A DNA stretch of 33,412 nucleotides from Oscillospiraceae bacterium (lineage in GTDB: Bacteria; Bacillota; Clostridia; Oscillospirales; Ruminococcaceae): contig JAFLUG010000013.1 in the NCBI GenBank assembly GCA_022508885.1, positions 1 through 33,412 of the forward strand, read 5' to 3'. A program made the translations under genes and the position numbers. Each line of letters starts with the position of its first letter. Positions within the stretch are counted from its first letter, which is position 1. Below, piece after piece: positions 20,836 through 25,604 of this stretch. A model generated the notes under the pieces. The model was not told where the DNA came from. It saw only the letters and a program-made list of their open reading frames with translations, and made no database searches.

Positions 20836-20870
20836 TCAAGGGCGGTGCTTAGGCAGTGCCCTTGATTTGT
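20836..20870 (+). terminator. Hairpin after clpX
   Basis: Stem TCAAGGGC (20836-20843) with GCCCTTGA (20858-20865), then TTTGT. The short T run makes it a weak, possibly leaky terminator; the next gene begins only 17 nt later and has no other visible promoter, so some read-through is likely. Confidence 0.5.
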
Positions 20871-20882
20871 AAAGGAGAGGTT

Positions 20883-21794
20883 ATGGGAAAGGTTTACAGA
20901 AAACAGACAATTGAGGGAGTGACAGTCCCCGCTGTAATTCATAACGTAAATTACTTCTGGCTCAATATGGGAGTTTTCGAGGACGGCACGATTAGCTGCT
21001 GGAACAAGACCGACCTCTCGGATGTGCCTTATCAGCTGAACAGAGGCTGGCTTACGCCGCGCGTTCCCGAGGGTAAGGGACTGAGTGTTTATGGGCTGTG
21101 TTGGCTGGAGATCATCAAAGCCGATTGGAAATTCAACAACGAAAGTTATAATGAGTTCATTCGGGATACCGTGCGTTCGCTTAATCCCGAAATGGCGAAC
21201 ATCTACAAGACGACCGAACGCGAGAAGGCAAAATGGAAGGACTATCATGTCGGCTTTACCGCCGAACCCACGCCGTGTAAAATCATCGGACGCTACGGTT
21301 ATCAGCTTATTGACGGAGATAAATCGAACATTCTCCTATATAACGATGAAAGGTTGTTTTTAACACAGGTGAACACATACTCGGATGGAACATTTTCGGT
21401 TGACGGCTTGGGAGAGCAGTTTTTCACGCTTGAGGAAATTGAAAAGCTGTTTGAGGACAAGACGCTGCGTACCTTTGTAAAAGATGGCGATACGGTGTCG
21501 TTCGGAGCATTGGGAGAAGCTCAGTGCAAGACGGTAAGCTCCGTCAAGCCCTCCGAAAAGCTAAAGGAGATAAGGGAAAAATCGTTTCGCGTTCAGAACA
21601 AGCCCGACGCTCACGAGCGCTGTCAGAGGGCATATCACGCGTATCTTGTCGAGCCGTCGGACATCAACAGGGAACAGCTAAGAAAGGCATACGAGGCTGT
21701 TCCCGAGCACGAGCGCATCTACCTCGGCGATATGGATACCCGAAACACCGATTTCGAGCGTATTTTGTACACCGATGAAAAGCGCGAGGTATGA
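20883..21794 (+). CDS. Unknown protein with a possible internal repeat
   Basis: I do not recognise the family with confidence. The 303-aa product has no signal peptide or membrane helix. Its N-terminal segment VTVPAVIHNVNYFWLNMGVF followed by EDGTISCW resembles uncharacterised domains of the type 'PAIIHNG..YF...VYEDG.I.CW' seen in Firmicutes. A second stretch near residues 160-215 (LLYNDERLFLTQVNTYSDGTFSV) looks like a diverged repeat of the first. The C-terminal 80 residues are charged and helical. The start ATG 20883 is set by AAAGGAGAGG just upstream; an earlier in-frame ATG at 20856 lies inside the clpX hairpin. Confidence 0.85.
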   Translation: MGKVYRKQTIEGVTVPAVIHNVNYFWLNMGVFEDGTISCWNKTDLSDVPYQLNRGWLTPRVPEGKGLSVYGLCWLEIIKADWKFNNESYNEFIRDTVRSLNPEMANIYKTTEREKAKWKDYHVGFTAEPTPCKIIGRYGYQLIDGDKSNILLYNDERLFLTQVNTYSDGTFSVDGLGEQFFTLEEIEKLFEDKTLRTFVKDGDTVSFGALGEAQCKTVSSVKPSEKLKEIREKSFRVQNKPDAHERCQRAYHAYLVEPSDINREQLRKAYEAVPEHERIYLGDMDTRNTDFERILYTDEKREV

Positions 21795-22201: not shown

Positions 22202-22230
22202 TTGATTTTTGTGATTGGATTTGCTATAAT
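22202..22230 (+). promoter_or_regulatory. Sigma-A promoter of the P-type ATPase homologue and DUF368 gene
   Basis: TTGATT (22202-22207), 17-nt spacer, TATAAT (22225-22230). Transcription would start near 22237, about 36 nt before the ATG. Confidence 0.85.
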
Positions 22231-22272
22231 AAAATAGTGTTTTCTATAATATAATTAACGAGGGAATGTCAG

Positions 22273-24735
22273 ATGGCACAGTTTTTTGATTTCAGAGGAG
22301 ATTATTACGGTCTTACCTCCAAAGACGTGGAAAAAAGACTTTTCACCTACGGTGCAAATATATATACCAAAAATGTAAAAAAGGACGGATTTTCGTACCT
22401 GAAGGCTGTTTTGTCGCCGTCGGTCATAATTTTGCTGGTGGCGGGTATTCTGGCTTTTTTTGGAATTGGGATTGCCGCTGGAATTGTTACTATTCTCATT
22501 GATGCACTTTACTGCGCGGCGGAGATATATTTTAAAAAATCCGCGGATAAGCGGCTGAATGAGCTTAGCGGAACATTCAGGATGAAAATGCGTGTTATCC
22601 GCGGCGGAAGTGTCGAGCTTGTTGATAAAGAGTATATTGTTCCCGAGGATCTGATCGTAGTTCAGGAGGGAGAGCGTGTTCCGGCAGACGCCTTTATTCT
22701 CGAGTCATATGATCTCGCTTGTGATGAGAGCCTTTTTACCGGAAGCAATATCCCTGCGGCAAAATATTCGGGAGGTATTTCAAGCAGCGAGCTCAAGCCT
22801 ACGTTTGTTTACGCTGAGACCACTGTTCTTTCGGGCATTGCCATCGCAAAGGTAAGCGCAACGGGAGTTGATACGAAATATTATCAGTATTGCGGCGAGC
22901 TTCCCGAAAGAAGCCCGTATTATACCGGTTTTGAGAGACTTATACGCTCGCTTATTCCCATAAGCAGCGCTGCGGCGCTTGTTATCACGGTTCTTACGCT
23001 TATCATAGGCTTTGCCGGAAGTAATGGAGTTGTAAACACAGCCATAAGCGGACTTGTGCTCGGACTTTGTTTGATCCCTACCGGTATTGAGCCCGTGATA
23101 AGATATTACTATGTTGGCGGCTGTTCCGAGCTTTTGAAATGCGGTGCTGTGATAAAATCCTATAACGATATTGAAAAGCTCAACAGCATGTCCGTGCTCT
23201 GTGTTGAAAAAGAGGGCGCTATTTCAAAGAACAACCTCGAAGTACGTGATATTTACGCACCCAGCGAGGAGCTTTTGTATAAGGTCGCCGCGCTTGCCTG
23301 CGGGCCGAATTCCTCAAATCCGGCAGAACGTGCGCTTATGGGAAAGGCGTCGTTTTCGTATGATAGGTTTTCGGAGATCTACGAAAACTGCGAGTTTATT
23401 GAAGATCTTCCCGATGACGACACAATAAGCGGAGCGCTTTGGGATGTGGGCGGCGACAGACTGTATTGTATAAAGGGAGTGCCGGAGCAGATACTCCCCA
23501 TGTGCAGTCTGAGGGGAGAGCATCTCATCTCTGCGCAAAAGCGCTATCAGGAATACTATGAAAAGGGATTTTCGGTTATGGCGTTTGCTTGTGTAGAGGC
23601 AAATTCCGAAGAGCTTGACAGGACTGTAGGCTTTAGCTATACGTTTGTGGGTTTTGTGGCGTTTTCCGCGCCTTTGAGGGATTCAGTTTCAACGGCGGTC
23701 AGGACTTGCCGCGCCGCGGGAGTTCGTGTTGTTATGCTTTGCGAGGATTCAGCCGATTCTTCCGCCGCAACGGCGAAAATGATCGGTATTCCTTCGGACA
23801 GGGTAGTTACGGGCAGCGAGCTTGAGAAAAACGAAAATGTGGATTTTGGAGCTGATATATTCGCTGATATCACATCTGACCAAAAGCGCCTTATAATTAA
23901 AAAGCTCAAGGCAGACAAAACAGTAGTCGGAATGGCAGGGACCCGCGCTACCGACACCGAGGCGCTTAAAACCGCCGATATAGGCTTTACTATAGCCGAG
24001 CATTGCTCGCCGAGTGTAAGAGAAGCGGCTGATATCGTAATGAACGACGATAATTTCCTGTCTATCGCCAAGGCGTTGACTTCCGCGCGCCAGGTACACC
24101 GAAACATAAAGCGCGGAGTTTCGCTGATATTTGCCGAATATATCGCTTTTCTGGTAATAATGATAAGGGATCTTATCGTTGACGCTCAGCTTATGTTAAA
24201 TCCGCCGATTATGGCATTATTTACGATGATTCTTATTCCGGTGCTGGCGATAAGCTATGCGGGCGGTAAAACCGATATGAGTGATCCTATGCCAAGTTCG
24301 GATTTTATCTCACACAGAAAGTTCAATCTGCGGTATCTGGTGTTTTGCTCTGTCGTAGGAGTTCTTACCGGCATAGCCGCTGCGGTTTCCTACGCGCTTA
24401 TGTACGGAGGTGAGGCTGTCGGGATCGATCAGGGAATAGCCCGTAGCTGCGGGTTTGTAACGTTTATGTTCGCAACATCCGGTTTTGCATTTATACGCCA
24501 TTCGGAAAACAATCCCTTTAAGGCGTTTATAAAGTCAAGTCTTTTGTCTAAGATCTCGCTTTTAGCGTCAGTTGTGCTTACGTTTGTGTTTGTGTATGTA
24601 CCGGGTGTAAATGGAGCGTTTGGACTTTCGGCTATCGACGCGTTTGCGGTAATAATAAGCATTGTTATAGGAGTACTGCCGCCGGCGGCGTATTTCGGAA
24701 TTAAATATCTTTTCAGGATCAAGGAGAGCGTATGA
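22273..24735 (+). CDS. P2-type ATPase homologue lacking catalytic motifs (pseudo-ATPase)
   Basis: Full-length 820-aa protein with P2-type ATPase layout: N-terminal GLTSKDVEKRLFTYGAN, two helices, actuator domain, M3-M4, P and N domains, and six C-terminal helices. The catalytic signatures are changed: DKTGT is E312-K-E-G-A; TGES is T156-G-S-N; DPLR is A466-P-L-R; TGD is C490-E-D; TGDGVND is A-G-T557-R-A-T-D561; the M4 PEGL is P269-T-G-I. The gap from T270 to E312 (42 residues) equals that from the M4 Glu to the phosphorylated Asp in SERCA, so the alignment is secure. KGVPE (401-405) in the N domain is kept. No frameshift or stop is present, so it looks selected as a non-pumping protein. GAGGGA precedes the ATG; the stop overlaps the DUF368 start. 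Confidence 0.9.
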   Translation: MAQFFDFRGDYYGLTSKDVEKRLFTYGANIYTKNVKKDGFSYLKAVLSPSVIILLVAGILAFFGIGIAAGIVTILIDALYCAAEIYFKKSADKRLNELSGTFRMKMRVIRGGSVELVDKEYIVPEDLIVVQEGERVPADAFILESYDLACDESLFTGSNIPAAKYSGGISSSELKPTFVYAETTVLSGIAIAKVSATGVDTKYYQYCGELPERSPYYTGFERLIRSLIPISSAAALVITVLTLIIGFAGSNGVVNTAISGLVLGLCLIPTGIEPVIRYYYVGGCSELLKCGAVIKSYNDIEKLNSMSVLCVEKEGAISKNNLEVRDIYAPSEELLYKVAALACGPNSSNPAERALMGKASFSYDRFSEIYENCEFIEDLPDDDTISGALWDVGGDRLYCIKGVPEQILPMCSLRGEHLISAQKRYQEYYEKGFSVMAFACVEANSEELDRTVGFSYTFVGFVAFSAPLRDSVSTAVRTCRAAGVRVVMLCEDSADSSAATAKMIGIPSDRVVTGSELEKNENVDFGADIFADITSDQKRLIIKKLKADKTVVGMAGTRATDTEALKTADIGFTIAEHCSPSVREAADIVMNDDNFLSIAKALTSARQVHRNIKRGVSLIFAEYIAFLVIMIRDLIVDAQLMLNPPIMALFTMILIPVLAISYAGGKTDMSDPMPSSDFISHRKFNLRYLVFCSVVGVLTGIAAAVSYALMYGGEAVGIDQGIARSCGFVTFMFATSGFAFIRHSENNPFKAFIKSSLLSKISLLASVVLTFVFVYVPGVNGAFGLSAIDAFAVIISIVIGVLPPAAYFGIKYLFRIKESV

Positions 24736-25604
24736 AGGGTTTTGCCCGATATATCAGGTATTTTTTGAGTGGACTTGTTTTCGGTACGGCAAATGTTATT
24801 CCCGGAGTAAGCGGAGGCACTATGCTTGTCATATTCGGAGTTTTCGACAGGCTTACCGAGTCGATCTCAGGCATTAAAAGCATACTCAAAAACCTGCCGT
24901 TTCTTATTGCGTTTGGTTTGGGCGCAGGTTCGGGAATACTTATCTCGGCAAAGGTCATCTCATCGATGTTTGAGATGTTCGGAGTACAGACAAATATGTT
25001 CTTCATCGGGCTTATTTTAGGCGGCATTCCGCTTATTTACAAAATAGGCACGACCGAAAAAAAGGCAAAGCCGCTTTGCGTCTTGCCTTTCGTAATTGCA
25101 ACGGCAGTTGTTATCGGTCTTTCCGTGCTTGATAGACTCGATATTCTTTCGCTTGGGTTAGAAGAGTCAGTAACGGGATTTGACCTTGTGTTTTCTCTTA
25201 AGCTGATAGGGTGCGCGGCGCTTGCGGCAGTTACTATGATAATTCCCGGAATTTCCGGCTCGTTTGTAATGATGCTTTTGGGCGTTTATGAAACGATAAT
25301 CGGCGCGCTTAAGGACTTAAATTTCTGGGTGATAATCCCGTTTGCTATCGGAGCCGTTTTGGGAATAATACTCGGCGCGAAGCTTATCTCAATGCTTATA
25401 AACAAAAACCGTCTTATGGTTTATTCTGTGCTTATGGGGCTTGTAGTAGGCTCGGTCTACGCTATCCTGCCGGAGGGCTTCGGATTTAATCTGGACACGG
25501 GTTACGGATTTGTGTGTCTGATTTTCGGAGTAATTGCCTCGGTATTGTTTGAAAGGATATCCGACGACGGGGAAAAGGCGGTAAAATCCGATGCAAGTTT
25601 GTAG
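24732..25604 (+). CDS. DUF368 family (polyprenyl-phosphate transporter, PopT-like)
   Basis: A 290-aa polytopic membrane protein of the DUF368 family, some members of which (PopT) were reported to recycle undecaprenyl phosphate across the membrane for cell-wall synthesis. The signature GTANVIPGVSGGTMLVIFGVFDRL is at 18-40, and a second copy, TMIIPGISGSFVMMLLGVYE, lies around 165-185, as expected of the inverted-repeat fold. About eight helices are predicted. ATG overlaps the stop of the P-type ATPase homologue (ATGA), implying coupled translation. It ends at a family-2 repeat that separates it from the convergent sigG. Confidence 0.92.
   Translation: MKGFARYIRYFLSGLVFGTANVIPGVSGGTMLVIFGVFDRLTESISGIKSILKNLPFLIAFGLGAGSGILISAKVISSMFEMFGVQTNMFFIGLILGGIPLIYKIGTTEKKAKPLCVLPFVIATAVVIGLSVLDRLDILSLGLEESVTGFDLVFSLKLIGCAALAAVTMIIPGISGSFVMMLLGVYETIIGALKDLNFWVIIPFAIGAVLGIILGAKLISMLINKNRLMVYSVLMGLVVGSVYAILPEGFGFNLDTGYGFVCLIFGVIASVLFERISDDGEKAVKSDASL

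Follow-up and report, generated by a model that had tools for sequence, protein, structure and literature searches.

The pseudo-pump gene and its neighbour

In a 33,412-nucleotide stretch of Oscillospiraceae bacterium contig JAFLUG010000013.1 (assembly GCA_022508885.1), hereafter the window, we observe a plus-strand gene at 22273..24735 that encodes an 820-amino-acid homologue of P-type ATPases without the catalytic residues, referred to here as the pseudo-pump. Behind it on the same strand lies a gene for a 290-amino-acid DUF368/PopT-family polyprenyl-phosphate translocase (24732..25604; PF04018 E value 1.7e-40, 139.6 bits against a gathering score of 26). The pseudo-pump frame runs from an ATG start to a TGA stop with no internal stop, in agreement with a preliminary description made from the sequence alone, which had also considered the promoter and the ribosome-binding site to be intact. 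The latter is borne out by a GAGGG located 8 bases 5' of the ATG (22260..22264, plus strand), while the promoter-like TTGATT-17-TATAAT, with a TG ahead of the -10 element (22202..22230, plus strand; 10/12 consensus matches), is weak evidence, as the same scan returned 11 sites versus 6.3 in shuffled sequences. The stop of the pseudo-pump gene and the start of the DUF368 gene overlap in ATGA (24732..24735, plus strand), suggesting translational coupling, and a ribosome-binding-like site for the DUF368 gene, AAGGAGAG (24721..24728, plus strand), lies within the end of the pseudo-pump gene. A search of the window against Rfam, made for an upstream RNA as a clue to function, gave no match at gathering scores.

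Homology across the A, P, N and M domains makes the window protein a member of the P-type ATPase superfamily, with residues 7-788 aligning end to end to the Listeria Ca2+-ATPase LMCA1 (lmo0841; phmmer E value 3e-47) and a Pfam E1-E2_ATPase match at an E value of 3.6e-27. In a comparison with NCBIfam profiles the general P-type model passes, and none of the P-type equivalogs listed exceeds its curated cut-off (the best, TIGR01647, scores 219.2 against 615.5 bits). P-type ATPases are defined by a phospho-aspartate, and the window protein is without that of LMCA1, as well as its TGES Glu, M4 Glu and M6 Asp. In the LMCA1 alignment, all the substitutions listed in the preliminary description are in register: TGSN for TGES in the A domain (residues 156-159; 22738..22749), PTGI for PEGL/PEEF in M4 (residues 269-272; 23077..23088), EKEGA for DKTGT in the P domain (residues 312-316; 23206..23220), APLR for DPxR, which is DPPR in LMCA1 (residues 466-469; 23668..23679), CED for TGD (residues 490-492; 23740..23748), and AGTRATD, of which GTRATD (residues 556-561; 23938..23955) stands for GDGVND. 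To these we add TMILIP in M6 (residues 651-656; 24223..24240), at the place of the E-x-x-x-D-P of relatives with a PEEFPV motif; these motifs all lie on the plus strand, as does KGVPE in the N domain (residues 401-405; 23473..23487), which is retained as described. The distance from T270 to E312 was counted and is indeed 42 residues, which is also the spacing between the PEGL Glu and the phospho-Asp in SERCA. The phosphorylatable Asp of DKTGT is thus Glu in the window protein and the TGES Glu used for dephosphorylation is Ser, and on the strength of its motifs the pseudo-pump appears to be catalytically inactive.

The pseudo-pump is predicted to have the complete P-type fold. AlphaFold2 modeled the window protein from 77 rows with a mean predicted local distance difference test score (pLDDT) of 83.4 and a predicted template modeling score (pTM) of 0.76, and a distant family member, L144, with 83.0 and 0.77; both models match solved P-type pumps across nearly their whole length (Foldseek). 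Among the 50 matches listed for the window model, TM-scores by query length were 0.64 to 0.79 for structures titled as E1 and 0.56 to 0.65 for those titled as E2, with structures lacking a named state in their title left unclassed, and the root mean square deviation was mostly lower for the E1 structures with both the window protein and L144. This lean toward E1 may be a habit of AlphaFold, and it carries no mechanistic inference here.

Motif loss and selection among relatives

An orthologue is present in 41/43 genomes of the window's genus, the two others being 73% and 80% complete. In one of these two, G017, the upstream gene would fall off the contig, since the DUF368 match begins 50 bases from the contig end. 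The contig scan contributed 80 relatives out of 112, comprising 35 genus-type sequences (49 to 96% identity to the window protein) and 45 distant ones (29 to 34%); counts of 36 genus-type sequences include the window protein. Most of the relatives are titled as Oscillospiraceae, Ruminiclostridium or Clostridia metagenome-assembled genomes, with isolate names that suggest an origin in gut and rumen samples and possibly termites, and the Roseburia and Bacteroides titles among them are likely mislabeled bins.

Alignment columns were scored over the window protein and its 80 relatives (n = 81, with the TGES column present in 80). The TGES Glu is found in 0/80 sequences, and the two acids of the ion site of cation P2/P3 ATPases, M4 Glu and M6 Asp, are found in 0/81 each. 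The TGDGxND motif, too, is gone from nearly all of the clade. The M4 position is Thr in 36/36 genus-type sequences, with Ala and Val in two further genus loci, and 80/81 sequences have Leu, Ile, Val or Phe at the M6 position, compared to Asp in 16/17 canonical sequences. The phospho-Asp position is Glu in 36/36 genus-type sequences, and in the 45 distant ones it is Asp in 31, Glu in 11, Gly in 2 and Asn in 1. Other new constants of this rebuilt, genus-specific site are Ala316 and Glu491 (36/36 each, as for the retained Asp561), Arg558 (35/36) and Thr557 (34/36). The genus-type sequences also lack the nucleotide pocket of the N domain made up of Phe, Lys and the Lys of KGAPE, roles that we take over from SERCA: the Phe and the first Lys are found in 0/36 and the KGxPE Lys, present in 78/81 overall, in 35/36. 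In the distant set, the Phe position is Phe in 31 and Tyr in 12, and the first Lys position is Lys in 22 and Arg in 6. The claim of the preliminary description that every catalytic signature is replaced therefore holds for the motifs that it listed and is too strong as worded, given that K313 is retained in 81/81 and D561 in 78/81, and that 81/81 sequences have a basic Arg or Lys at positions 469 and 538 and an acidic Asp or Glu at position 492. At the same time, it undercounted the losses by missing the M6 Asp and the N-domain Phe and Lys. Taken together, the motif counts seem to indicate two stages, with the ion site and the dephosphorylation Glu lost throughout (except for one sequence outside the main set, L077, discussed below) and the phospho-Asp and the nucleotide pocket seemingly lost in addition in the window's genus.

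The nearest canonical relatives are PEEFPV/CVDKTGT pumps (L042, L043, L082), which have the domain order and length of the window protein at 27 to 29% identity (L042 to L048; 28 to 29% in a sample of the class). They share with it the CV ahead of the phosphorylation site, and most have KGSPE in the N domain. Unlike the window protein, 12/12 aligned PEEFPV pumps have DKTGT, a TGES-type Glu, TGDGVND and the M4 Glu, and 11/12 have the M6 Asp; in all 17 aligned canonical relatives, we observe the phospho-Asp, a TGES-type Glu, TGDGxND and the M4 Glu. In the class sample, 7/391 genomes scored over the threshold; besides the window's own genome, the matches were a g16 genome and five canonical pumps. 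In a phylum sample 23/398 did so, and the 14 read among the 22 that remain beside the window's genome are all canonical; both searches scored two or three candidates per genome, such that rare members could escape.

With respect to selection, the ratio of nonsynonymous to synonymous substitution rates (dN/dS) of the pseudo-pump is 0.027 to 0.160 in 22/22 pairs (NG86 method) and 0.085 between the window protein and its nearest, 96% identical relative. Many of the underlying dS values are above 1 and hence saturated, and YN00 returned no estimate for 3/22 pairs. The DUF368 gene shows similar values (0.039 to 0.159). The dead phosphorylation loop itself (CVEKEGAIS, residues 310-318) is the best-conserved 9-mer across the 36 genus-type sequences, and FSAPLRDSV ranks third, tied with one other stretch. 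Drift would be expected at a site that is merely out of work. Mean entropy in the genus-type clade is 1.50 in M5-10 versus 0.57 in the first P segment. The conclusion that the pseudo-pump is kept under purifying selection and is not a decaying gene is well supported, because of its presence across the genus, a dN/dS of about 0.09 and the constancy of the dead-site residue. This is in line with the preliminary description, which had proposed a conserved pseudo-pump and named two observations that would speak for decay, canonical motifs in sister genomes and a dN/dS near 1; neither is what we find. As an enzyme homologue that is under selection and has lost its catalytic residues, the window protein is a probable pseudoenzyme.

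In a tree of 101 rows, 77 pseudo-pumps are split from both canonical groups by a branch of length 0.75 with a Shimodaira-Hasegawa-like approximate likelihood ratio test (SH-aLRT) support of 100, and 34 genus-type rows group together, also with a support of 100. The tree comes from a quick search with SH-aLRT as the only support measure; L117, L119, L160 and L162 were excluded, the placement of L137 and other long branches is unsure, and single-clade status of the distant set is not established by it. At least three changes on this tree are needed to account for Glu at position 312, which is carried by the genus clade, by ten distant rows that form a clade and, as a lone case, by L142.

Pairing with a DUF368 gene

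Among the 80 named loci, 7 extend less than 300 bases past the pseudo-pump and are too short to show a neighbor; of the remaining 73, 72 carry a DUF368 gene after it on the same strand (32/32 genus-type and 40/41 distant). The spacing is -4 to +60 bases in 62/72 pairs, and 14/72 have the four-base overlap. Clustering of all neighbors within 6 kb, based on mechanical gene calls, recovers a family at a median of +17 bases from the pseudo-pump, which we take to be DUF368, in 67 loci (31 genus-type and 36 distant), and the next family common to both groups is found in only 11 loci. A DUF368 neighbor was found in 0/38 canonical relatives with flanks of about 1.5 kb or less (24 from L042 to L059 and L081 to L086, and 14 from the phylum sample). 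Conversely, 54 genomes in other genera of the family exceeded the PF04018 cut-off, and a P-type-like neighbor was found at 0/30 DUF368 loci taken from 30 of them (one per genome, about 1.5 kb on each side, in a test without its own positive control).

The DUF368 and DedA proteins are candidate undecaprenyl phosphate (C55-P) translocases, as stated in passages of a study on these families (PMC9876793), and the gene next to the pseudo-pump, as a member of PF04018, belongs with the DUF368/PopT side of the DUF368/PopT and DedA/UptA translocases. The window's own genome (90.6% complete) has a single DUF368 match and no DedA match. Across the genus, DUF368 is found in 41/43 genomes and DedA (PF09335) exceeds its cut-off in 1/43, compared to 13/14 controls. 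With the former near-universal and the latter rare, DUF368 may be the main return route of C55-P, the lipid carrier of cell-wall building, in this genus. A search by sequence for solved structures of DUF368 found none at E values up to 1.

The partner genes themselves vary. At least 361 residues are encoded by 21 of the partner DUF368 genes (L110, L114, L124, L129, L164, L165 and 15 more), in both groups and not in the window copy, and those that were aligned carry an insertion between the DUF368 halves. In L150, L154 and L155, a gene of about 273 to 302 amino acids lies between the pseudo-pump and the DUF368 gene; the N-terminal part of its product in L154 (IVQASDLHNN) resembles, by eye, a calcineurin-like phosphoesterase.

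A putative translocase subunit and its alternatives

Within the well-known P-type ATPase superfamily, the pseudo-pumps make up a pseudoenzyme branch with a specific partner gene. The preliminary description had suggested that such a protein could be kept for a sensor, scaffold or regulatory role; beyond its scope were the distant relatives, in which most of the same functions have gone through different substitutions, and the DUF368/PopT pairing, which is the strongest clue to a role. Based on this conserved pairing, the motif losses, the purifying selection and the predicted fold, we consider with modest confidence that the window protein is a conserved non-hydrolyzing P-type pseudo-pump, in tandem with a DUF368/PopT translocase that it most likely serves as an accessory or regulatory subunit. 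The absence of the phospho-Asp and the TGES Glu leaves no normal E1P/E2P cycle, and that of the M4 and M6 acids no usual ion site. We propose that the two genes would form one operon, and that the pseudo-pump would sit next to the translocase in the membrane, governing how active it is or where it is placed. In the window's genus, Glu312 together with Arg558 and Glu491 would lock the P domain in one state, with Glu312 acting either as a mimic of phospho-aspartate or as a plain bar to phosphorylation. The distant relatives, in which Asp312 and the N-domain Phe and Lys are often present, may bind nucleotide and could serve as a nucleotide-responsive switch of the translocase.

Several observations weigh against this subunit reading. 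Gene order speaks for co-inheritance and probably co-expression, and not for contact. The partner scores 121.5 bits with the NCBIfam PopT equivalog, under its cut-off of 400, such that C55-P as its substrate is taken from the family. More than 60 bases separate 10/72 pairs, some of which have an intervening gene, and the long-branch sequence L137 (the same as L039, genus g99) is without the pairing, with DUF368 fragments on other contigs in its counterpart genome (G140). The DUF368 genes of other genera do without a P-type neighbor, DUF368 matches fall on two contigs in 13/43 genomes of the genus, and in a genome rated 100% complete (G016), the pseudo-pump lies at a contig end and there is no DUF368 match. 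Between L165 and L166, the DUF368 dN is 0.007 and the pseudo-pump dN 0.148, a disparity which suggests that the pair is not locked together and hints at separate histories; such a pattern would be seen if one of the two genes had been exchanged on its own. Furthermore, some of the distant proteins might be phosphorylated, since Asp312 is found in 31/45 and the TGD Asp is retained in 44/45, and since L077 (g16) has SGES in the A domain and Asp312, with the M4 Glu gone; this sequence is perhaps an intermediate stage or a reversion.

Some of these same points suit a rather unlikely alternative, in which the pseudo-pump has a role of its own (e.g., as a membrane sensor or a scaffold for envelope proteins) and is merely co-expressed with DUF368, both serving the envelope. 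The motif, dN/dS and dead-loop evidence is shared by this alternative, adjacency fits shared regulation equally well, and L137 without a partner and the second DUF368 matches in the genus are more easily accommodated. What speaks for a subunit instead is that no other neighbor family is nearly so widely kept across the deep split between the two groups, and that the four-base overlap in 14/72 pairs suggests translation coupling of these two products specifically. Less likely again would be a lipid-handling protein, the M domain of which, with the ion site gone, binds or passively passes a lipid, for example C55-P or undecaprenyl pyrophosphate (C55-PP), beside PopT. The M4 Glu and the M6 Asp are gone in 81/81 sequences, with the hydrophobic residues noted above at the M6 position in 80/81, and P4 flippases likewise have a non-acidic M4. 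The partner belongs to a family of lipid-carrier translocases, and 7/16 members have a weak match to the P4 flippase (ATPase-Plipid) model (E values up to 0.001). However, 19 families were matched in all, P4 being one of them, and the window protein's own list does not include it; such a protein would have no energy source, and the transmembrane residues are among the less conserved parts, a poor fit to a lipid pathway.

We judge it improbable that the pseudo-pump is still an active ATPase with a rebuilt site, where Glu312 accepts phosphate or other chemistry takes place. That the loop is the most conserved 9-mer and that K313 and D561 are retained in 81/81 and 78/81 would suit such neo-catalysis, and the 31/45 distant sequences with Asp312, along with L077 with its Asp312 and SGES Glu, keep it open for the distant group. 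Standing against it are the TGES Glu in 0/80, the N-domain Phe and Lys gone in 36/36 genus-type sequences and both ion acids gone in 81/81, losses that would be predicted to stop the cycle of known pumps. That we are dealing with a decaying gene or a sequencing artifact has a negligible probability. Two genus copies, both in draft genomes, look broken, one (L067/L117), at a contig end, with its frame interrupted by a stop at residue 767 of 781 and the other (L068/L119, genome G023) with residues 1-205 and 215-817 in different frames; real loss and assembly error are indistinguishable here. Decay and artifact were set aside given an orthologue in 41/43 genomes, a dN/dS of about 0.09 and Glu312 in 36/36.

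Returning to the subunit reading, it can be likened to known systems in part. In KdpFABC, a P-type subunit is complexed with another transport protein, as described in passages of two articles (PMC8385062, PMC9651954); the difference is that KdpB is a live ATPase, whereas here the P-type protein would be a dead partner. Human TMEM94/ERMA, a P-type-like membrane protein without TGES, has a disputed pump status according to excerpts of two reports (PMC12134183, PMC13322241); it is likened here by description, and differs in being a eukaryotic endoplasmic reticulum protein for which a phosphorylation site, D417, has been proposed. In open-licence PubMed Central (PMC) literature, we found no paper that names DUF368 together with a P-type ATPase and no description of a P-type partner, and nothing on inactive or pseudo P-type ATPases by that wording. 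The passages of a 2023 review that speak of "pseudo," "lack" or "inactive" describe no pseudo-pump family (PMC10654040), and a 2014 survey gives DKTGT in 99.77% of the 9,634 P-type ATPases that it identified, with 22 point variants (PMC3896382).

A clade that is under strong selection and yet without the ion-site acids, nearly always without the dephosphorylation Glu and in one genus without the phospho-Asp too, would put the fold to a new use. Going further, we tentatively suggest, as a possibility for the family as a whole, that an ATP motor became a structural subunit, either fixed or sensing nucleotide, by which a C55-P translocase is gated, placed or stabilized, with the phospho-Asp replaced by Glu at least twice independently. 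The near-constant pairing with DUF368 bears on the energetics of C55-P translocases, which, together with their directionality, were left for future study in the passages of the report cited above (PMC9876793), and a natural non-hydrolyzing partner would give a handle on them.

As a minor observation, the window also encodes a protein with DUF7638 and DUF7639 (20865-21794) between clpX and a methyltransferase-like gene, and many genus-type loci have a gene for such a protein ahead of the pseudo-pump.

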